NCBI GenBank assembly: GCA_951813535.1
Contig: OX638345.1
Location: 2,043,158-2,107,157 of the forward strand
DNA from: an uncultured Dehalococcoidia bacterium
Lineage (GTDB): Bacteria; Chloroflexota; Dehalococcoidia; Lucifugimonadales; UBA3495
Length of the DNA stretch: 64,000 bases
Reading direction: 5' to 3'
In this document: in pieces, positions 2,831 through 38,718 of the stretch
How positions within the stretch are numbered: position 1 is the first letter of the stretch
Layout: every line of letters starts with the position of its first letter
Notes under the pieces: generated by a model
What the model was told of the DNA's origin: nothing
The model's database searches: none
What the model saw: only the letters and a program-made list of their open reading frames with translations
Program-made: the position numbers and the translations under genes

Positions 2831-3610
2831 ATGCTCCGCACCGGCCTGTACACCGCCGTCATCGGCCGGAGTGTGCGCTACTACCAGTCCACCGGCTCGA
2901 CCATGGACGACGTCGCCCAATGGGCTGGCACCGGCGCAGATGAAGGCGTCGTCGTCGTCGCCGAGACCCAAACCGCTAGCCGCGGGCGGTTGGGCCGGCG
3001 CTGGATTTCCGACGAAGGGAACCTCTACTTCTCCGTTCTCTTCCGCCCGGAACCGGAGGCACTGCCGCTGCTCAGCCCGCTGGCTGGCGTCGCCGTGGCC
3101 CGGGCCATTCGCCAGGTCGCTGGACTCTATCCGACCATCAAGTGGCCCAACGACGTCATGATCGACGGCCGCAAGGTTGCGGGCATCCTCGCGGAGAGCG
3201 CCGTGTCCGGCTCCCAGGTTCAGCACGCCGTCGTCGGCGTTGGCGTCAACGTCGCTCTTGACGTCTCTCTAGACGCTGAAATCGCCGCCACCGCTACCAG
3301 CCTGAACCACGCGTCCGGATCCGAAATCGACCGCCCGGAATTGCTGCGCCGCATCCTGCAGCACATGGACGCGCTGTACCTGGACCTGCGACGCGGCCGG
3401 TCTCCCATCGCCGAATGGCGCCGCTGGCTGGATACCCTCGGACAGCGCGTCACCGTCACCCACCATGGCGCGACCGACACCGGCCTCGCCGAGGATATCG
3501 ACGAGCACGGTAACCTATTGCTCCGCACCGACGCCGGCGACTTGTTGACCCTCACCGCCGGAGACATTACCCTCCGTGCAGCCCAAGGAGCGCCCGCAGC
3601 CAATGCTTGA
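2831..3610 (+). CDS. birA: Biotin--[acetyl-CoA carboxylase] ligase, class I (no DNA-binding domain)
   Basis: Biotin protein ligase activates biotin as biotinyl-AMP and transfers it to the lysine of a biotin carrier domain. Catalytic features are present: STGSTMDD near the start, the adenylate-binding loop SRGRLGRRW, the KWPND motif, and the lysine in GRKVAGIL. The last 50 residues form the small SH3-like C-terminal domain. There is no N-terminal winged helix, so it should not act as the biotin repressor. The ATG at 2831 gives 259 residues; an in-frame TTG at 2807 would add eight. Neither has a clear ribosome site. The stop overlaps the next gene's ATG. Confidence 0.92.
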   Translation: MLRTGLYTAVIGRSVRYYQSTGSTMDDVAQWAGTGADEGVVVVAETQTASRGRLGRRWISDEGNLYFSVLFRPEPEALPLLSPLAGVAVARAIRQVAGLYPTIKWPNDVMIDGRKVAGILAESAVSGSQVQHAVVGVGVNVALDVSLDAEIAATATSLNHASGSEIDRPELLRRILQHMDALYLDLRRGRSPIAEWRRWLDTLGQRVTVTHHGATDTGLAEDIDEHGNLLLRTDAGDLLTLTAGDITLRAAQGAPAANA

Positions 3611-4412
3611 AAACCTGTACCTCGACGGCAAAGTTGTCGTGATCACCGGCGGCGGCACCGGTCTCGGCCTCGAAATGGTGCGCGCCCTGACCCGTTCCGG
3701 CGCCAACCTCGCCATCGCCGGTCGCCGGCCGGGGCCCATCGAGGCCGCCTGTGATGAGGTCATCGCTGCCGGCCAGGACGCCATCGCAGTACCCACCGAT
3801 GTTTCCAAATCGTCGGATGCCGATGCTTTAGTCGACGCCGCGATGGCCCACTTTGGCCGCGTGGACGTGCTCATCAACAACGCTGCCATGGTCGCCGACA
3901 ACGTCCTCAAACCCATCTGGGAAATTACGGACGACGACTGGGAATCCGCCATGTCCGTCAACCTCTCCGGCGCTTTCTACTGCGCCCGCGCCGCCGCCAA
4001 GCCCATGGCGGACGCCGGCAAGGGCAAGATCATCAACGTCGCGTCCGGCTTCGGCCTGCGCGGTGGCCGCGACATCTACATGTACTGCTCCTCCAAGGGC
4101 GGCGTGATCCAGCTGACCCGCGTGCTGTCCTTCAGCCTGGCCCGCTACGGCGTCACCGCCAACAGCATCGTCCCCGGCTTCATTCCGACCATCGACCCCG
4201 GCGCGGAGATCAATCGCACCCTGCCCCAATCCGGCGACTTTCTGCCCACCGGGAAGCTCGGCAAACCCGAGGATCTCGGTCCCATCGCCGTGTTTCTCGC
4301 CTCCGACGCCTCCGACTACATGACCGGCGAGATGTTCATCCTCGATGGCGCGGGCCTGGCCGCCGGCATCACCCCCACGGGTCATGCGCCTGTCGCCGGG
4401 CTGGAACCATGA
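3603..4412 (+). CDS. SDR family NAD(P)-dependent oxidoreductase
   Basis: A classical short-chain dehydrogenase/reductase of 269 residues. It has the Rossmann glycine motif TGGGTGLG near the N-terminus, NNAA after the fourth strand, a catalytic Ser in VASGFG, and YCSSK as the YxxxK motif. The C-terminus contains the usual GEMFILDGAG. The substrate is unknown. The ATG at 3603 overlaps the birA stop by 8 bases, suggesting translational coupling; an in-frame GTG at 3576 would extend it by nine residues inside birA. It is followed by a second, degenerate SDR. Confidence 0.9.
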   Translation: MLENLYLDGKVVVITGGGTGLGLEMVRALTRSGANLAIAGRRPGPIEAACDEVIAAGQDAIAVPTDVSKSSDADALVDAAMAHFGRVDVLINNAAMVADNVLKPIWEITDDDWESAMSVNLSGAFYCARAAAKPMADAGKGKIINVASGFGLRGGRDIYMYCSSKGGVIQLTRVLSFSLARYGVTANSIVPGFIPTIDPGAEINRTLPQSGDFLPTGKLGKPEDLGPIAVFLASDASDYMTGEMFILDGAGLAAGITPTGHAPVAGLEP

Positions 4413-4469
4413 CGCCCCAATCCTGCCCGAAAACCGTCACCCATCCGCCCTTGACAGGAGTGTAACGAC

Positions 4470-5252
4470 GTGGCGTTGCCGTCCCGAAACCATCTGCCCG
4501 CCGAGTTCAGTCTGGCCGGCCAAACTGCCATCGTCGCCTCCGCCGGTGGCGATGAATCTCCCTTCCTGGCCGCCGCGCTGGCGGAAGCCGGGGCGGCGGT
4601 GTTCGCCGTGGCACGCCGTGATGCGACCGCCGAAGCCATCGCCGATGCCGTGACCGCCGTCTCCGGGCGTGAAACCGGCTGCCACGTGGGGCGTTGGGAC
4701 ACCCCGGCCGGATCCGCAGCGGTCCTCGAGTCCTTCGCCGCCACACATGCCAGGGTAGACATTCTCGTCAACGACACCCGCAGCTTTTTTGCCAAACCCG
4801 CCGCCGGCATAACCCTCGCGGAGTGGGACGAGCTCCACGCCCGCAACGTGCGAGCCACCTTCATGCTCAGCCAGGCGGTGGGTCAACGCATGCTGGACCA
4901 GCAGTACGGACGCATCGTGAACGTCATCTCCAACCTGGCCGAGCGGGCGGTCATCAACTGCTCCGCCTACAGCGCCACCCAGGCCGCCGTCCTGTCCCTC
5001 ACCCGTTCCCTGGCCGTCGAATGGGGCCGCAGCGAGATCCGCGTCAACGCCGTCGGCTCCGGCTGGTCAATCGCGGAGGACATCCCTCTCGAAACCCAGC
5101 GCGAGGAACTCCTCGTCCGCTACACCCCAATGCGTCGCAAGGGTCATCCCCGCGACCTTGCCGCCATGCTCGTCTACCTCTGCTCGCCCCACTGCGACTA
5201 TCCCTCGGGCCAACCCGTCTACATCGATGGTGGCCTCAACGCGCATCCATGA
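4470..5252 (+). CDS. SDR-fold protein with degraded catalytic motifs
   Basis: A 260-residue SDR-fold protein (start GTG, preceded by AGGAG at 4456-4460). The overall pattern is retained, including the C-terminal YIDGGLNAHP. The key motifs are not: the TGxxxGxG position reads ASAGGDESPF, NNAG reads NDTR, and YxxxK reads YSATQ, so the catalytic lysine is Gln (codon CAG). The Ser about 12 residues earlier remains. It probably cannot catalyse hydride transfer in the usual way and may be a regulatory or structural partner of the intact SDR upstream. That role is inference. Its stop overlaps the possible first ATG of the ATPase gene (ATGA, 5249-5252). Confidence 0.8.
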   Translation: MALPSRNHLPAEFSLAGQTAIVASAGGDESPFLAAALAEAGAAVFAVARRDATAEAIADAVTAVSGRETGCHVGRWDTPAGSAAVLESFAATHARVDILVNDTRSFFAKPAAGITLAEWDELHARNVRATFMLSQAVGQRMLDQQYGRIVNVISNLAERAVINCSAYSATQAAVLSLTRSLAVEWGRSEIRVNAVGSGWSIAEDIPLETQREELLVRYTPMRRKGHPRDLAAMLVYLCSPHCDYPSGQPVYIDGGLNAHP

Positions 5253-5266
5253 TTTGCGGTGCAACC

Positions 5267-6328
5267 ATGCCGGCACTCGAAAACATCACGGTCAGAGGTT
5301 TCAAGAGCATCAGAGCGCTCGAAGGCCTCAAGATGAACCCTATCAACGTTTTGATCGGGCCAAACGGTTCAGGGAAATCCAACTTTATTGAGGTGTTCTC
5401 GCTACTGCGGGACGTGGCAAGGGATCGCGTCGATGAATTTGTGGCGAGGGCTGGTGGAGCCGACCGGATTCTTCACTTTGGATCTCGCACCACGAAACAG
5501 GTGGATCTGACGATTACATTCGACAATGGCGAGACGTACGAGTTGACTATGACCGACACAACCGGAGACTCGTTTGCCAGGAAGCAATACACCGGCAGTC
5601 CTGTAGGGCTGGGACACAGTTTCACGTCGAGGGCTCCTTATGATGAAGAAGTCACGAGCGGAGAATTGCGGTTGGCCGACCCTTGGATCGCCTACCATTT
5701 CCACGACACCGGTCGCGCGTCTCCTATGAAGAGGTTGGGCGATTTGTATGACAACCGCGCTCTACGGACCGATGGCTCCAACTTGGCTGCATTCTTATTT
5801 TTGCTTCAGTCCATTCATCCCGAATCGTATCGGACAATTAGGCGAACAGTTCAGATGGTGGCGCCGTTTTTCGATGATTTCGACTTAGCACCACTGGCGT
5901 TGAACCCAGAAAAGATAATCCTTGAATGGCGACATAAAGGTTCAGACTCTTATTTCAACGCCGCGGCGCTGTCTGATGGCACGCTAAGGTTTATCGCATT
6001 GGCAACCGTCCTGCTACAGCCACCAAGGCTCAAACCTTCGGTGATTCTACTGGATGAGCCGGAACTGGGCTTGCATCCCTATGCCATTACCCTGCTGGCG
6101 TCGTTGGTCAAGCAGGCCTCGGTCGATAGTCAGGTGATCATGGCGACGCAATCGCCGACCCTGCTGGACCATTTTGAGCCGGAAGACGTGATCGTGACTA
6201 ACCGTGTGAACGGAGAGGCTACTTTCGAACGGTTAGACGCCGAAAGATTGGCGGTATGGCTCGAGGACTACAGCATGGGCGAATTGTGGGAAAAGAATGA
6301 AATCGGCGGCCGGCCGGCCCGTGAATGA
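5267..6328 (+). CDS. AAA (ABC/SMC-like) ATPase, partner of DUF4276 protein
   Basis: A 353-residue AAA_15/AAA_21-type ATPase of the OLD/RecF-like class. N-terminal ITVRGFKSI is followed by Walker A GPNGSGKSN (about residues 28-36). The middle region contains the coupling insert. An ABC-signature-like LSDGTLRF, Walker B VILLDEPELGLHP and a switch ATQSP lie in the last third. The start at 5267 matches the family (MPALENITVRGFKSI); an upstream ATG at 5249 overlaps the SDR stop and would add six residues. Base composition is clearly lower in GC than the flanks: I count 28 G+C of 60 in 5821-5880, against 44 of 60 in 12001-12060 in hisD. The DUF4276 gene follows after 15 bases. ATPase plus TOPRIM-like partners are typical of anti-phage dyads. 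Confidence 0.88.
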   Translation: MPALENITVRGFKSIRALEGLKMNPINVLIGPNGSGKSNFIEVFSLLRDVARDRVDEFVARAGGADRILHFGSRTTKQVDLTITFDNGETYELTMTDTTGDSFARKQYTGSPVGLGHSFTSRAPYDEEVTSGELRLADPWIAYHFHDTGRASPMKRLGDLYDNRALRTDGSNLAAFLFLLQSIHPESYRTIRRTVQMVAPFFDDFDLAPLALNPEKIILEWRHKGSDSYFNAAALSDGTLRFIALATVLLQPPRLKPSVILLDEPELGLHPYAITLLASLVKQASVDSQVIMATQSPTLLDHFEPEDVIVTNRVNGEATFERLDAERLAVWLEDYSMGELWEKNEIGGRPARE

Positions 6329-7075: not shown

Positions 7076-8308
7076 CAGGGCAATCGCGTCTTAATATGAT
7101 TTTTAGAAATGTGCTAATGTCCCATGATCTGGTAAAAGTCGTGGAGGTAGGAGGGCATAGCACAACCACCAAAGCCAACAGTGCTCGATCATTTCGCTCA
7201 GTTGGACGATCCCCGAGTAGAACGTACGCGACGCCACAAACTGGTGGACATCCTGGCCATCGCCATCTGCGCCACCATCTGCGGAGCCGATTCCTGGGTC
7301 CATATCGAGCTCTTCGGCAGGAGCAAGCTGACCTGGTTTCAGAGTTTCCTGGAACTGCCCCACGGCATTCCGTCCCACGACACCTTCGGCGATGTCTTCG
7401 CCCGCCTCGACCCAGTGCAGTTGCAGAATTGCTTCGTGTCCTGGACCCAGGCTATCGCTGAGTTGCTGCCCGGCGAGGTGGTGGCCATTGACGGCAAGAC
7501 CGCGCGACGCTCCTACGACCGGGCGGGTAAGAAAGGAGCGATCCACATGGTCAGCGCCTGGGCCACCCAGCAGAGCCTGACCCTGGGTCAGGTCAAGACT
7601 GACGAGAAATCCAACGAGATCACCGCGATTCCTCAACTGCTGGAGTTGCTGGACCTGAATGGCTGCATCGTCACCATTGACGCCATGGGCTGCCAGCGGG
7701 AGATCGCTCAGCAGATCACAGAGGGCGGCGCCGATTACGTGCTGGCGGTGAAGGAGAACCAGGGTAGACTGCACGAGGGTATTCAAGACCTGTTCGAGGG
7801 CGCCGCGGCATTGGGCTTTGACGGAGTGCCCCATGACCACGCTGAGACGGTGGACAAGGGACACGGGCGGGTGGAACGCCGGGAATGCTGGGTAATCACC
7901 GATCCGGACTGCCTGGATTACCTGGACCCCCAGGGACAATGGCCACAACTGAAGGCCGCCGTCAGGGTGGTGGGCCACCGGACCACCGAAGCCGGCGACA
8001 CCCGCCAGCCTCGCTACTACATCAGCAGCCTGGCCGGCTCAGCGGAACAACTGCTGGCCGCCATCAGAAGCCACTGGGGCATCGAAAACTCATTGCACTG
8101 GACCCTGGACGTGACCTTTCGAGAAGACCATTGCCGAATCCGCAAGGATCACGGGCCACAGAATATCAACACCCTGCGCCAGATCGGACACAACCTCCTG
8201 AAAAACGAGACAACCCTGAAAGTGGGCATCCAGGGCAAACGGCTCAACGCCGGTTGGGACGAGGACTACCTCCTCAAAGTCCTCCTCGGATAAGACGCGA
8301 TTGCCCTG
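7076..8308 (+). mobile_element. Complete ISAs1-family insertion sequence, 1233 bp
   Basis: The element is bounded by an 18-bp perfect inverted repeat, CAGGGCAATCGCGTCTTA at 7076-7093 with its reverse complement at 8291-8308. It is flanked by a perfect 10-bp direct repeat, CAACCCTGCC. One transposase gene fills the inside, and its stop codon lies in the right repeat. ISAs1 elements usually leave 8-10 bp duplications, which fits. Intact ends, an intact gene and an unmutated duplication suggest a fairly recent insertion. It sits between the DUF4276 gene and hisZ. Confidence 0.95.
7181..8293 (+). CDS. ISAs1 family transposase
   Basis: A 370-residue DDE transposase. N-terminal LDHFAQLDDPRVERTRRH and the IAICATICGAD segment are typical of the ISAs1/DUF4338-like N-terminal domain. 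The catalytic triad is visible as D in AIDGKTARR, D in TIDAMGCQ and E in HWGIENSLHW. The GTG at 7181 is the first conventional start after an in-frame TAG at 7148; codons upstream (…PPKPT) look family-like, so a non-standard start at about 7157 is possible. No frameshift is visible, so it is probably functional. The stop TAA (8291-8293) is part of the right inverted repeat. Confidence 0.95.
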   Translation: MLDHFAQLDDPRVERTRRHKLVDILAIAICATICGADSWVHIELFGRSKLTWFQSFLELPHGIPSHDTFGDVFARLDPVQLQNCFVSWTQAIAELLPGEVVAIDGKTARRSYDRAGKKGAIHMVSAWATQQSLTLGQVKTDEKSNEITAIPQLLELLDLNGCIVTIDAMGCQREIAQQITEGGADYVLAVKENQGRLHEGIQDLFEGAAALGFDGVPHDHAETVDKGHGRVERRECWVITDPDCLDYLDPQGQWPQLKAAVRVVGHRTTEAGDTRQPRYYISSLAGSAEQLLAAIRSHWGIENSLHWTLDVTFREDHCRIRKDHGPQNINTLRQIGHNLLKNETTLKVGIQGKRLNAGWDEDYLLKVLLG

Positions 8309-20726: not shown

Positions 20727-22937
20727 TCAGTGGCGGAATCCCGTGTCGAATCCCCGGGCGTCGGGGTTGATCAGCAGGTCAGGCCGGCCGCCCCACCGCT
20801 TCAGGAACCGGCCAAAGTTCTTGCGGCTCAGCTCGTCCCGCTGGTTCTCCTCCAGCTCCTCCCATTGGCGGTGCTCGTGACGCACCATCGGCAGGCTGCT
20901 GTCGCACACGACCCGGTACCCGGCGTTCTTGAACTGGAAGCAGTAATCAATGTCCAGGTTCCGGTAGAAGCGGAAGGACTCGTGCATCAACCCCACTGAG
21001 GGCAGGTCGGCCCTGCGGAACGCCATGCAATATGCCTGCATCGCGTCGGCGTCGCCCCGGTCCACCTCCTCGTGGAAATGCTGCATGTCGTCGGTAGTCA
21101 ACCCATACGGGCCGAACACGCCGATGCTGTTGTCCGCCAGATGTTCCGCAACCGGGGACAATATATCCCCGACCACCTCGGTCGATGCATCCAACAGCAC
21201 GATGTAGCGGCCTCGAGCCTGCTTCAGCCCGATGTTCTTGCCGGCGGCGTCGCCCACCACGTGGTCGCAATGGATCACCCGCACGTTGTCGTGCTCGGCC
21301 TGGGCTTCTTCCAGGTACTCCGCCGTGCCATCCGTGGAGCCGTTGTCGACCACGATGATCTCCACCGAATCTCCGCCGGTGTGCCGCAGGACCGCCTCCA
21401 CGCACCGCCGCACGTCGTCCACGTAGTCGTAGGCGTTCACCATGAACGTGAAGTCGTAGAGGTCGGGTTCGGCCAGCAGCGACGGCACTTCCCTGGAAGC
21501 GGACACCGAGGGCCACCGCGCCTCCTGCAATTCCAGCGGCGTTTGCGGACGCACCAGCGTCGCCACTCCGGTGTCCTGCACCACCATCCCGCCTTCCACC
21601 ACCTGGGACCGCAGCGCGTCGGCGTCGCGGTACGCTGCCTGTTGTCTCAGCGCCTCCCGGCGCTCCAGGGCGTCGCTGGTCTGCGTGCCGATCTGGTACT
21701 GCTCCGGCACCTGGTCCAGATCCAGGCCGAACACCCGGTCAAAGTCCAGGATCAGGTCCAGCTTTTCGGCGGCCGGCAGGTGCGATCGCACCATGGCCCA
21801 AGTGAGCGCCAGCGCGGTGGGCAGGTCCAGGTCATTGTGGACCGCATCCCAGAATTTGCCGCTCCATACCTGACCGTCCGCGCTCAGGGCATGGTGGCCG
21901 GAGCCGTTTCCGGAAATGTTCCGCCACACCCAGATCCGGTTCCGCAGGCCGGTCAGCGCCTTCTCTGCCGCCCGCAGCGACGTGAAGGTGAAGTTCATCC
22001 GGTGCCGGTACCGCACCGTCATGCACAGATACCGGAACGCCAGCGGGTCAAATCCCCGCGTCGACAGGTCCTCGATCAGGAACACGTTGCCGGCCGACTT
22101 GGCCATCTTGGCTCCGTCCGCCAGCAGGTGCTGTCCGTGCACCCAGTAGTTCACGTGCTGCTGCCCGAACGCTCCTTCACTCTGCGCGATCTCGTCCTCA
22201 TGGTGCGGGAATACGTTGTCGACGCCGCCCGTGTGGATGTCGAACTTTTCGCCCAGATACTTATGCGCCATCGCAGAGCATTCGATGTGCCACCCGGGGA
22301 AGCCCTCTCCCCAAGGGCTGTCCCACTTCACGTCCCGTCCCGGTTCGGCTGCTTTCCAAAGCGTGAAGTCCCTCGGGTCGCGTTTCAACGGGTCGGCTTC
22401 CGCGCGCACCCCCTCCAGCAGGTCGCCGCCGAAGTTGCGCGACAACTTCCCATATTCGGGGTAGCTGTTCACGTCAAAGTAGATATTCCCACCCGCTTCA
22501 TACGCCGCCCCGTTGTTCATCAGCGTGCCCACCATCTCCAGCATCTCCGGAATGTGGTGCGACGCCCAGGGAAACACGTGGGCCGGCAGTATGTTTATCC
22601 GCTCCTCGTCCTGCCAGAAAACGTCCGCGTAGAATTCGCCGATTTCCTGCAGGGACTTGCCCTCGGCCAACGCCGCCATGATCATCTTGTCGCCACCGGC
22701 TTCGGCCAGTTCCTGGCGCATGTGGCCCACATCGGTGATGTTCTTGATGTGGTAGACCTCATTGCCGTCGGCCACCAGGATCCGGCGGATCCAGTCCGCC
22801 ATCAGATAGGTGCGCAGGTTGCCGATGTGGGCATACCGGTACACCGTCGGCCCGCAGGTGTACATCGACACCTTGCCGGGCGTCATCGGCCGGATCTCCT
22901 CGACGTTCTTCGTCAGGGTGTTGTAGATGTGTAACAT
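20727..22937 (-). CDS. cysS: Cysteinyl-tRNA synthetase fused to a family 2 glycosyltransferase
   Basis: One uninterrupted frame of 736 residues. Residues 1-465 are CysRS: zinc ligand C28 in YTCGPTVY, HIGN (37-40) as the HIGH motif, WHIEC (C220) and PHHEDE for zinc, KMAKS (277-281) as KMSKS, and VVQDT near 454, a typical CysRS C-terminal element. From about 495 a GT-A glycosyltransferase (GT2) begins: FTFMVNAYDYVDDVRRCVEA, VVDNGSTDGT (530-538), GKNIGLKQARGRYIVLLDAS and an acceptor part with RNLDIDYCFQFKNAGYR. The expected DxD reads DAS. The ATG at 22937 has GGAGG upstream. No stop or ribosome site separates the halves. The GT substrate is unknown. Confidence 0.93.
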   Translation of the reverse strand: MLHIYNTLTKNVEEIRPMTPGKVSMYTCGPTVYRYAHIGNLRTYLMADWIRRILVADGNEVYHIKNITDVGHMRQELAEAGGDKMIMAALAEGKSLQEIGEFYADVFWQDEERINILPAHVFPWASHHIPEMLEMVGTLMNNGAAYEAGGNIYFDVNSYPEYGKLSRNFGGDLLEGVRAEADPLKRDPRDFTLWKAAEPGRDVKWDSPWGEGFPGWHIECSAMAHKYLGEKFDIHTGGVDNVFPHHEDEIAQSEGAFGQQHVNYWVHGQHLLADGAKMAKSAGNVFLIEDLSTRGFDPLAFRYLCMTVRYRHRMNFTFTSLRAAEKALTGLRNRIWVWRNISGNGSGHHALSADGQVWSGKFWDAVHNDLDLPTALALTWAMVRSHLPAAEKLDLILDFDRVFGLDLDQVPEQYQIGTQTSDALERREALRQQAAYRDADALRSQVVEGGMVVQDTGVATLVRPQTPLELQEARWPSVSASREVPSLLAEPDLYDFTFMVNAYDYVDDVRRCVEAVLRHTGGDSVEIIVVDNGSTDGTAEYLEEAQAEHDNVRVIHCDHVVGDAAGKNIGLKQARGRYIVLLDASTEVVGDILSPVAEHLADNSIGVFGPYGLTTDDMQHFHEEVDRGDADAMQAYCMAFRRADLPSVGLMHESFRFYRNLDIDYCFQFKNAGYRVVCDSSLPMVRHEHRQWEELEENQRDELSRKNFGRFLKRWGGRPDLLINPDARGFDTGFRH

Positions 22938-23640: not shown

Positions 23641-25923
23641 CTACGGACTCGGAGCCACCGCTGCTCCCGAGGCCTTCAGCGCCTCAATCTCGGCTGTCGA
23701 GTATCCCGCTTCCGCCAGGATCTCGTCGGTGTGCATCCCGAACCACGGGGCCGGCGGCCCCAGCCTCGGCGGCGTCGCCGACAGCCGCGCCGTGGTGCCC
23801 GAGTGGTCGACGCTGCCCCATACGGTGTGTTCCCGCGTCACGACAAAGCCCGCGTTCCGCACCACGGGGTCGTGGCGGTAGTCTTCCATCGTCAGGTTGG
23901 GGGTTACCGACACGCCCAGCGGACGCAACTCCTGCAACCAGTGCTCGATGGTGTCGCCCTTTATGACTTCCGCGATCGCGTCGCTGTCGTGGTGAATGTC
24001 TCGGAACTTCAAAGCCGACAGCAGCGACCCGTACGCCCCGGCGTCGGGGCAATGGATGTACAGCCACCCGTCGGAAGCCTTGTACAAACGTGAGCCCGCG
24101 GAGTACCCGCGTGCCTCCACTCCCTCGATGTCCTCGCGCTGGTATCCCTCGTAGTCCAGGAAGTACGGCGACTGCAAAATCCCGGCAGTCAGCGCCAGGC
24201 CGCTGTCAACCGACTGGCCCTTGCCGGTCCGGTTCCGCTCGTGCAGCGCCAGCGCCACGGCGTACGCTCCCATCAGGCCGGTGCCGTAGTCATTCACCGC
24301 GTAGGGCGCCAGCATAGGCTTGCCGTCCCGGCCGCCGCGACGCACCTGCATCCCGCTGGTGCCCTGCGCCAGCTGTTCCCATCCGGCCCGCTCCGACCAT
24401 GGCCCGTCGTATCCGAAGGCGTTGAGCGAGGCGTACACGATGTCCGGCTTGACCTTCTTGACTTCCTCGTATCCCAGGCCCAGTCGCTGCACCGCCGACT
24501 TCCGGTTGTTCTCAACGATCACGTCCGCCGACTCGACCAGCTTCCAGAAAACTTCGCGGCCCTCGTCGGTCTTCAGGTTCAGCATGATGCTGCGCTTGCC
24601 GCGGTTGACGTCGATATAGCCAATCGGGTCGAGAATGCGCGTTGGGTCGTCGATCTTGATCACGTCCGCGCCGAACTCGCCCAGCGTGCGCCCGCACGTC
24701 GGTCCGGCCAGGATGATGCATAGGTCCAGGACCCGTACCCCCTGTAGCGCGGACATCACGTCGCCATGTCCGTGGCTGGCGGCCGCCCGGGCCGGCGCGC
24801 TCTCCAGTTCCGCCAGCACTTCGTCGGTGTGCTCGCCCAATTTGGGAGCCCGGCCTTGTATCGACCCCGGGGTGCCCCGCAGCCGCACCTGCACGCCCGG
24901 CTGCTTCATAATGCCGTGCTCGGCGTCCTCCACCTCGGCCACCATCTTGGCATCGACCGCGTGCTCATGCACCAGCCACTCGTCCACGGTCTTGCACACC
25001 GTGCAAGCCCCGCCCTGCGCGTTGATGTCCGCCTCCCACTGCCACGCCGTCCGCTCCTTGAACATCTCGGCGAACCGGTCCTGCCAGAACGCCAGCGTAT
25101 CGCCGTCCACCGGCCGGCCGAACAACGACGTGACTTCCTCAATCCATTCCGTCTTGCCCGCCGCCGTCAGCGTCTGCCGCGCGAACCGCTCGAACATACC
25201 GTGGTGATACACCCACCGCCCGTCGGCGCACTGGTACGGATGCGACATCACCGTGCGCGGAAAGTCGAAAAGGTCAACGTACTCGTAGTTGTTGAACTTG
25301 ATGATTCGGCTGCCCATCGCGGTGAACATCGCCGAGTGCAGCGGCACTTCGATCCGCTGCCCCTTGCTCGAATTGTCCCGCGCGTTGATTGCCATGGCCA
25401 CAGATACCGAACCGAGCAGGGCCGAGAAAGTGCTGGCAACGGGCAGCGGCGTGAACAACGGCTCGCCGTCGCTTTCCGAGGTTTCCGGGTAGAAACCCGT
25501 CTCCGCGCTGATGACGGGATCCCAACCCGGCTCATTGCGGCTCGGGTGTTCCTCGCCATAACCGGGCAGCGAACAGTAGATCAGTCGTTGGTTGCCCGCA
25601 GACAACTCTTGGTATCCGATCCCCAGCCTGTCTGCCACTCCGGGCCGGAAATTTTCGATGACCACATCGGCATTGGCGACCAGCCGGCGCGCGTTCTCCC
25701 GACCGGCGTCTGTCTTCAGGTCCAGCATCACCGATCGTTTGCCGCGGTTCCACGTGGCAAAGGCCGGCTCCGACCGCGCCGGATCGCCGCCGGGTCGCTC
25801 CACCTTGATCACGTGCGCGCCCTGGTCTGCCAGCAACATCCCCAGCATGGGTCCGGGCACGTACTGCCCGAACTCCACCACGTGGATGTCTCGCAATGCG
25901 CCTGTAGTGCCGTTCGTTGTCAT
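23641..25923 (-). CDS. Double-domain CaiB/BaiF (family III) CoA-transferase
   Basis: 760 residues with two complete family III CoA-transferase units, 1-385 and 390-760. Each has the Rossmann-like start (VVEFGQYVPGP; VLDLCIILAGP), GADVIKID-type motif, and RGKRSxMLxLKTDxGR. Family III enzymes move CoA between acids through an active-site Asp. In the second unit this Asp is present in AVNDYGTGLMGAY (about 546). In the first unit the aligned residue is Ser164 (PVASTFSALLG), so that half is probably non-catalytic. Substrate unknown. Start ATG at 25923, four bases after the stop of the small membrane-protein gene. Confidence 0.92.
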   Translation of the reverse strand: MTTNGTTGALRDIHVVEFGQYVPGPMLGMLLADQGAHVIKVERPGGDPARSEPAFATWNRGKRSVMLDLKTDAGRENARRLVANADVVIENFRPGVADRLGIGYQELSAGNQRLIYCSLPGYGEEHPSRNEPGWDPVISAETGFYPETSESDGEPLFTPLPVASTFSALLGSVSVAMAINARDNSSKGQRIEVPLHSAMFTAMGSRIIKFNNYEYVDLFDFPRTVMSHPYQCADGRWVYHHGMFERFARQTLTAAGKTEWIEEVTSLFGRPVDGDTLAFWQDRFAEMFKERTAWQWEADINAQGGACTVCKTVDEWLVHEHAVDAKMVAEVEDAEHGIMKQPGVQVRLRGTPGSIQGRAPKLGEHTDEVLAELESAPARAAASHGHGDVMSALQGVRVLDLCIILAGPTCGRTLGEFGADVIKIDDPTRILDPIGYIDVNRGKRSIMLNLKTDEGREVFWKLVESADVIVENNRKSAVQRLGLGYEEVKKVKPDIVYASLNAFGYDGPWSERAGWEQLAQGTSGMQVRRGGRDGKPMLAPYAVNDYGTGLMGAYAVALALHERNRTGKGQSVDSGLALTAGILQSPYFLDYEGYQREDIEGVEARGYSAGSRLYKASDGWLYIHCPDAGAYGSLLSALKFRDIHHDSDAIAEVIKGDTIEHWLQELRPLGVSVTPNLTMEDYRHDPVVRNAGFVVTREHTVWGSVDHSGTTARLSATPPRLGPPAPWFGMHTDEILAEAGYSTAEIEALKASGAAVAPSP

Positions 25924-37876: not shown

Positions 37877-38623
37877 CTAAAATGCTTCGTTGACCAGCAC
37901 CAGCTCCGCGTAGGAGGCATACCGGCACCCGAAGCCCGCGCCCGCTTCCCGGGCGTGCGCCGTCAGAAACTCGAACGGACTGTTCCCCACGTCTCCCAGG
38001 TTCTGCAGGTACACCTTGTGCTCTCGCAGCGACGCCAGTCCCGTCTCCCAGTGTTCCGACACGTCCACGGCGTGCGTCGGGACCGTCGAGCCAAACACGG
38101 CCACGAAGCGGACTTCATTCCAGGGTTCCAGCCCTTCGTCCAAAAGTTCCGGAAAGATCCAGCGATTCCCGGCGTCTCGCGCCGCATCAAACACCGCCAA
38201 CCCCACCCACCGGTGATCCGCCATGTTCAGATGACCGCTGAAAAACTGCAGGTGATGATTGATGGTGAGCACGACGTCGGGCCGGTGCTTGCGGATCGCC
38301 CGGCTCAGGTCCCGCCGCAACGGCAGACCGTACTCTATCACTCCATCCGTGTGGCCCAGGAATTCCACCGTATCCACACCCACCACCCGGGCGGCATTGA
38401 TCTCTTCCTGAGACCGCAATCGCCCCACCTCCGACGGGTGCATCCCGTCGATCCCGGCCTCGCCCGAGCTGACCATCACGTACGCGATGCGCTTCCCTTG
38501 CGCAGTCCACTTGGCGATGGCCGCGGCTCCGCCGTACTCGAGGTCGTCTGGATGGGCCACAATCGCCAGGCCCCTCTGCCAGTTCTCCGGCACGGGCACG
38601 TTCGGCGCCTCACGTTGCTGCAT
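37877..38623 (-). CDS. PIG-L family deacetylase
   Basis: 248 residues of the LmbE/PIG-L fold. The zinc site motif is IVAHPDDLEYGG, with further His in INHHLQFFSGHLN and MADHRW. This family removes N-acetyl groups from sugars such as GlcNAc-inositol conjugates or their analogues. No mycothiol or bacillithiol synthesis gene is nearby, so the substrate is unknown. ATG at 38623 is preceded by GGAGG at 5 bases; the frame continues nine codons upstream without a ribosome site. Confidence 0.9.
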   Translation of the reverse strand: MQQREAPNVPVPENWQRGLAIVAHPDDLEYGGAAAIAKWTAQGKRIAYVMVSSGEAGIDGMHPSEVGRLRSQEEINAARVVGVDTVEFLGHTDGVIEYGLPLRRDLSRAIRKHRPDVVLTINHHLQFFSGHLNMADHRWVGLAVFDAARDAGNRWIFPELLDEGLEPWNEVRFVAVFGSTVPTHAVDVSEHWETGLASLREHKVYLQNLGDVGNSPFEFLTAHAREAGAGFGCRYASYAELVLVNEAF

Positions 38624-38718
38624 ATATCCTCCGTGGTGTTTGCACTGCAATTGGCTCTAGGGTGAGCCGGCGTCGCCGGCAGTCCCGCGTTGTGCTGCTC
38701 AGGAACGGTCGGTCAAGG

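Follow-up and report, generated by a model that had tools for sequence, protein, structure and literature searches.

The locus analyzed here raises the question of why a cysteinyl-tRNA synthetase (CysRS) should run on in frame into a glycosyltransferase, and what the second domain might do for the first. It lies within a 64,000-nucleotide stretch of DNA from an uncultured Dehalococcoidia bacterium (hereafter the window), in which a first-pass annotation made from the sequence had reported a single 736-codon frame passing without interruption from a CysRS into a family 2 glycosyltransferase (GT2), and had suggested tRNA glycosylation, a mycothiol-like cysteine-sugar step, or a chance fusion among the possible explanations. 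The frame was found exactly where the annotation had placed it and contains no internal stop; its coding part occupies 20730-22937 of the minus strand, which the annotation had not specified. The HIGN, KMAKS, and DNGSTDGT (residues 531-538) motifs and the D583-A584-S585 sequence all appear in the translation as described, and the VVQDT motif placed near residue 454 is located at 452-456. Pfam recognizes both a CysRS catalytic domain (E 6e-96) and a Glycos_transf_2 domain (PF00535) at residues 500-610 (E 6e-22; score 78.8 vs. a cut-off of 23.3). An AlphaFold model of the whole fused protein, a prediction proposed by the annotation, has a mean pLDDT of 79 and contains a complete CysRS fold including the anticodon-binding mini-domain (ABD). 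The coordinates of these features are listed in Table 1. The gene upstream of the fusion (window 23641-25923, minus strand) encodes a 760-residue tandem duplication of CaiB/formyl-CoA-transferase-type domains, and a DDE transposase gene (PF13808 plus PF01609) is found at 7181-8293 on the plus strand.

Table 1. Features of the fused gene and of a second gene discussed in the text (window coordinates; residues refer to the 736-residue protein).
Feature	Window position	Strand	Basis
Whole gene, type II CysRS plus GT2-like domain, 736 aa	20727..22937	(-)	start codon ATG 22937; stop codon 20727-20729
CysRS catalytic domain and helical bundle, residues 1-410	21708..22937	(-)	PF01406 at 16-325; 1u0b alignment
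HIGN (HIGH-type) motif, residues 37-40	22818..22829	(-)	sequence; kept in fused proteins
KMAKS motif, residues 277-281	22095..22109	(-)	sequence; kept in fused proteins
CysRS ABD, residues 418-465	21543..21686	(-)	profile match at 424-456; 1u0b alignment to residue 465; R431, D440, R443, D455 conserved
Linker, residues 466-492	21462..21542	(-)	separates the 1u0b-aligned part from the first GT strand
GT-A (GT2-like) domain, residues 493-736	20730..21461	(-)	PF00535; GT-A fold, Z about 20; kept in family
D583-A-S585 at the site of the DxD motif	21183..21191	(-)	sequence; family conservation
PIG-L de-N-acetylase	37877-38650	(-)	PF02585; closest to BshB1, far under cut-off

Judged from its sequence, the gene product is a true cysteinyl-tRNA synthetase belonging to a distinct subtype, which we refer to as type II. 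Residues 1-465 of the model align with the E. coli CysRS:tRNA-Cys complex (1u0b) at Z 48.2 (2.7 Å, 443 residues aligned, ABD included), which bears out the annotation's description of a full CysRS. The protein scores 403.8 against the cysS model TIGR00435 (cut-off 340) and 225.7 against the MshC model TIGR03447, below its cut-off of 485.1. The CysRS zinc ligands C28, C220, H245, and E249 are present and are conserved in 77-78 of the 78 non-redundant fused proteins used for our conservation counts, and when the HIGN, KMxKS, W/H/E, and ABD residues are considered together with these ligands, the range is 76-78 of 78, with the middle residue of KMxKS being either Ala or Ser. The C-terminal anticodon-binding domain typical of cysS proteins could be recognized by its alignment with 1u0b, by its residues, and by a match to our ABD profile (domain E 1.2e-5), while the Pfam CysS_C model returned no match on the window protein at E 0.01. 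The ABD residues conserved in the fused proteins are the equivalents of E. coli R427, D436, R439, and D451, which we take to be anticodon contacts in 1u0b. The window protein has the catalytic domain, zinc site, signatures, helical bundle, and ABD in common with bacterial CysRS (TIGR00435; 1u0b), but continues after the ABD into a linker (~27 residues) and a GT-A domain (~240 residues).

The host genome, a single 4.38 Mb contig, encodes a second, stand-alone CysRS, not known to the annotation, that is 37% identical to the fused CysRS half. This protein scores 517.7 bits, above the cysS cut-off, and groups with ordinary bacterial CysRS in our tree, whereas the fused CysRS falls in a separate clade. 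Among 48 tRNA matches in the genome, a single tRNA-Cys gene (anticodon GCA, with U73 and A37) and no second tRNA-Cys were detected; the same 48 include two tRNA-Trp(CCA) genes (L257 and L251). MiaA is also encoded. In the wider collection of loci, one short contig (L183) carries a tandem pair of CysRS genes (3075-4442 and 4457-5833) that differ in type.

When modeled alone (pLDDT 78), the GT half matched PcManGT (6yv7; Z 20.3, rmsd 2.9 Å, 193 residues aligned), WrtF (9omh; Z 19.8), 6p61 (Z 19.3), and SpsA (Z 19.1). Both the GT-A fold and the PF00535 match therefore place it with the GT2/GT-A glycosyltransferases, as the annotation had claimed for the region after the linker. It has the fold of these enzymes in common over ~180-190 residues (Z 19-20) as well as the DNGSTDGT motif and, putatively, the position of the general-base Asp, but it is only 19-23% identical to these solved structures and carries the motifs FRFYRxLD, RHEHxxW, and RxxLSxxN, which mark a subfamily. 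It also lacks a canonical DxD, since this site reads D583-x-S585, and Ser replaces the second Asp in 71 of the 78 fused proteins. The annotation had been cautious about catalysis for this reason, and rightly so, although Ser at this site proved to be a conserved family trait rather than a defect of the window gene. As far as sequence can tell, the missing DxD weakens a claim of ordinary GT2 catalysis and leaves the fold assignment intact. Three Actinomycetota copies have DxH instead of DxS, a variant that binds metal in GT27. Within the nucleotide-binding motif, D531 varies more and is replaced by Ala in 12 of the 14 Chloroflexota copies that are separate genes; together with the Ser at the second DxD position, this makes the use of an ordinary UDP-sugar doubtful. 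Conservation elsewhere in the domain is high, as G562, G576, D583, G609, G612, A632, Y658, R659, D662, H689, S704, and N707 are invariant in all 78 fused proteins. The set D583, R642, Y658, R659, D662, H689, S704, and N707 is invariant or nearly so among the fused proteins, and all of these plus H687 occur in 20 of 20 Actinomycetota relatives.

The annotation had proposed counting fused and separate forms across Chloroflexota, and both forms do exist. The full-length fusion was present in all 13 same-genus genomes tested, in 21/22 same-family genomes (one of those counted starts at query residue 31), and in 11/24 same-order genomes, with identity within the order reaching down to 42%. The class and phylum samples yielded 34 of 294 and 36 of 301 genomes with the full-length fusion, respectively, the host not being counted in either. 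The relatives with the fusion are named as SAR202, Dehalococcoidia, or Chloroflexi MAGs. Our CysRS tree groups the fused proteins, along with unfused sisters, in a single Chloroflexota clade. A single fused sequence (L224) was placed outside the fused clade in a quick tree, but the likelihood improved when all fused sequences were constrained to group with one another (p-AU 0.81), a topology compatible with a single origin of the fusion. Genus-level dN/dS ranged from 0.06 to 0.16 in the CysRS half and from 0.03 to 0.11 in the GT half, and both halves are thus under strong purifying selection. A chance fusion, one of the options in the annotation, is rejected on the grounds of conservation across many Chloroflexota families, low dN/dS in both halves, and a tree that allows one fusion event. 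The annotation had also reasoned that the fusion should be dismissed if no other genome carried it; instead, the same uninterrupted frame recurs in dozens of independent assemblies, and with dN/dS far below 1, the probability that it is an assembly, frameshift, or read-through artefact is negligible. Across the 41 loci compared, no gene family was conserved around the fusion beyond scattered housekeeping genes, nor was there a conserved operon with sugar, tRNA-modification, or thiol genes. The genomic context is therefore uninformative about the substrate.

A profile of the GT domain identified non-fused relatives in the Chloroflexota families f113, f122, f123, and f125 (most at ~190-270 bits, a few at 80-130) and, at 176-258 bits, in 30 of the 246 Actinomycetota genomes sampled, while 15 genomes of other phyla having other CysRS relatives yielded GT2 background only (≤60 bits). 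No stand-alone GT adjoined an unfused CysRS in the first loci inspected, but the genome-wide profile search located some elsewhere in the genomes. Most of the stand-alone GTs start with ~45 residues resembling the CysRS C-terminus. We built an ABD profile from the CysRS of loci L060-L106 plus that of E. coli and searched 1591 ORFs with it, which matched 34 of the 38 stand-alone GTs (E 2e-17 to 5e-5); beyond these, it matched only CysRS and, spuriously, one further ORF at E 0.38. Among those scanned, five stand-alone GTs (L310, L317, L333, L335, and L346) also exceeded the gathering threshold of Pfam CysS_C, and positions 419-462 of the NCBIfam cysS model match the N-terminus of stand-alone GTs. 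The equivalents of R423, R427, D436, G446, and D451 are invariant in 34/34 stand-alone ABD-GTs, and that of R439 is Arg in 30 and Lys in 4. The ABD is absent from three apparently complete stand-alone GTs. The stand-alone ABD-GTs of Chloroflexota and Actinomycetota thus have the GT signature and the ABD residues in common with the window protein, but are encoded by separate genes without the synthetase catalytic domain. On our best reading, the conserved evolutionary unit is the ABD plus GT, rather than the whole synthetase plus GT.

Several of these loci have features of their own. Three f122 copies (L317, L318, and L319) are degenerate, having lost Y658, R659, and H689, and genome G451 contains one degenerate f122-type ABD-GT copy in addition to an intact fusion. 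In three Actinomycetota loci (L333, L335, and L348), MaoC-type dehydratase genes precede the ABD-GT gene, and an ECF sigma/zinc-finger anti-sigma pair and then secE-nusG-rplK-rplA come after it; cysS sits near the latter genes in some bacteria. In a further group (L343 and its relatives L338, L340, L341, L351, and L352), the genes close to the ABD-GT gene encode a probable FtsH, a sigma factor of the SigH_actino/SigR type, an anti-sigma factor resembling RsrA (score 60.4; cut-off 62.5), and a PIG-L protein, a neighborhood that could hint at thiol-stress regulation.

Whether fused or unfused, the GT travels with type II CysRS. With a match of at least 370 bits defining a type II carrier among the 246 Actinomycetota genomes, the GT was found in 24 of 29 carriers vs. 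6 of 217 other genomes (Fisher 5e-23, relatedness not corrected), the exceptions being five carriers with no GT detected and six GT carriers without a full type II match. Type II was the only CysRS match at E 1e-40 in 17 of the 246 genomes, 16 of which have the GT, with some of the 17 being draft assemblies from which a second copy could be missed in single cases. Because it is the sole CysRS found in these 17 genomes, type II very probably charges tRNA-Cys there, and type II CysRS are probably tRNA-Cys charging enzymes. In family f125 (L301, L306, L307, and L320), the ABD-GT gene and an unfused type II CysRS gene are arranged tail to tail. The unfused f125 CysRS has a longer, divergent stretch between its catalytic part and its ABD.

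Of the options raised in the annotation, tRNA glycosylation is the one we favor, because the stand-alone GTs bear the CysRS anticodon-binding domain; the catalytic activity that this option implies is putative. As a leading but tentative hypothesis, to which we assign somewhat less than an even chance, the ABD-GT module is predicted to be aimed at tRNA-Cys and to be most likely an anticodon-arm glycosyltransferase. The ABD would hold tRNA-Cys by its anticodon arm and deliver it to the GT domain, which would in turn transfer a sugar to an anticodon-arm nucleotide. As the GT directly follows the ABD, it is probably near the anticodon end, and the anticodon arm is its likely target. Within the GT, D662 may serve as the general base, and D583, H689, and R659 may form an altered donor or metal site. 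One candidate acceptor is a modified A37, because the host tRNA-Cys has A37 and MiaA is encoded. The queuosine-tRNA glycosyltransferases (galQ/manQ), which act on Q34 of GUN-anticodon tRNAs, are likened here by function and not by sequence, and anticodon-loop tRNA glycosylation would be common to both only if our leading hypothesis holds. Since the anticodon of tRNA-Cys is GCA, Q34 cannot be the acceptor in this case. In the fused form, the charging and modification of tRNA-Cys would be combined in one protein. With slightly less assurance still, we suggest that these proteins may form a new tRNA-modifying class, namely CysRS-ABD-bearing glycosyltransferases acting on tRNA-Cys, which would be stand-alone in Actinomycetota and some Chloroflexota and fused in SAR202 and other Chloroflexota, where one protein would both modify and charge.

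The main rival to tRNA glycosylation, which we consider unlikely though to be taken seriously, is that the GT-A domain is catalytically dead and is appended to CysRS as a structural, tRNA-binding, or regulatory (sugar-nucleotide-sensing) domain. Synthetases commonly bear non-catalytic appended domains, and this possibility would account for the DxS, the variability of the nucleotide-binding D531, and the persistence of f122 copies without Y658, R659, and H689. However, the polar set, including the putative base D662 along with H689 and R659, is near-invariant across two phyla, which is beyond the needs of a scaffold, and the DxH of the three Actinomycetota copies also speaks against a dead domain. 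A considerably less probable scenario is that the GT acts upon Cys-tRNA-Cys or its thiol, for example by S-glycosylation of the charged cysteine to yield a modified aminoacyl-tRNA. Some GT2 enzymes do glycosylate cysteine thiols (SunS type), and the GT is tied to cysteine charging by fusion, neighborhood, and co-occurrence, but a GT that follows the ABD is expected, given general tRNA geometry, at the anticodon end and far from the acceptor end, and the modified residue would have to compete with ordinary cysteine on the sole tRNA-Cys.

Improbable as well, though less so than action on the charged cysteine, is a mycothiol- or bacillithiol-like pathway in which the GT would make an amino-sugar glycoside, PIG-L would deacetylate it, and a CysRS paralogue would ligate cysteine in the manner of MshC. 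MshC, the cysteine:GlcN-Ins ligase of mycothiol synthesis (TIGR03447; 3c8z), is itself a CysRS paralogue and has the CysRS-like catalytic fold in common with the window protein (Z 43.9), and the best support for such a pathway comes from those Actinomycetota ABD-GT genes that neighbor the SigR-type, RsrA-like, and PIG-L genes. In contrast, the window protein passes the cysS model and not the MshC model and retains the ABD that MshC lacks, as the MshC structures align only to residue 407, while type II relatives are the sole CysRS found in many genomes. The PIG-L gene that the annotation had linked to this pathway is real, but it lies 15 kb from the fusion and scores far below the BshB, MshB, and Mca cut-offs; with PF02585 as its only assignment, we rejected it as a partner of the fusion. 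BshC is absent from the host genome, and the fusion has no conserved thiol-gene neighbors. Collectively, these observations disfavor the mycothiol-like option of the annotation. Lastly, the two CysRS of the host bring to mind a second, orthogonal cysteine-coding system like that of Desulfobacterales, in which CysRS* (cysS*) lacks the ABD and pairs with a selC* tRNA (PMC7609411). A second CysRS copy per genome is common to both, but neither the ABD loss nor the selC* pairing is seen here: the window CysRS has its ABD, and the 48 tRNA matches include one ordinary tRNA-Cys with a GCA anticodon. We therefore rejected membership in this system, and an orthogonal code of this kind is very improbable.

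Our search of the open-access literature found neither a CysRS-GT fusion, in SAR202/Chloroflexi or elsewhere, nor an ABD-GT protein, which is weak evidence of novelty. Synthetases bearing appended domains are an already known kind, but a synthetase joined to a glycosyltransferase and a glycosyltransferase bearing a synthetase ABD both appear to be new. The family also presents an annotation trap, as the host has two CysRS genes and stand-alone ABD-GTs would pass as ordinary glycosyltransferases. Even if the GT is non-catalytic, the common ABD offers an explanation for the fusion that is concrete and testable, and it shows the CysRS anticodon-binding domain to be a portable module. If the GT does act on tRNA-Cys, bacteria would possess a kind of tRNA glycosylation not yet described, and a synthetase would here be equipped with its own tRNA-modifying enzyme, in a family present in SAR202, a marine lineage that is abundant and uncultured, as well as in some of the Actinomycetota.
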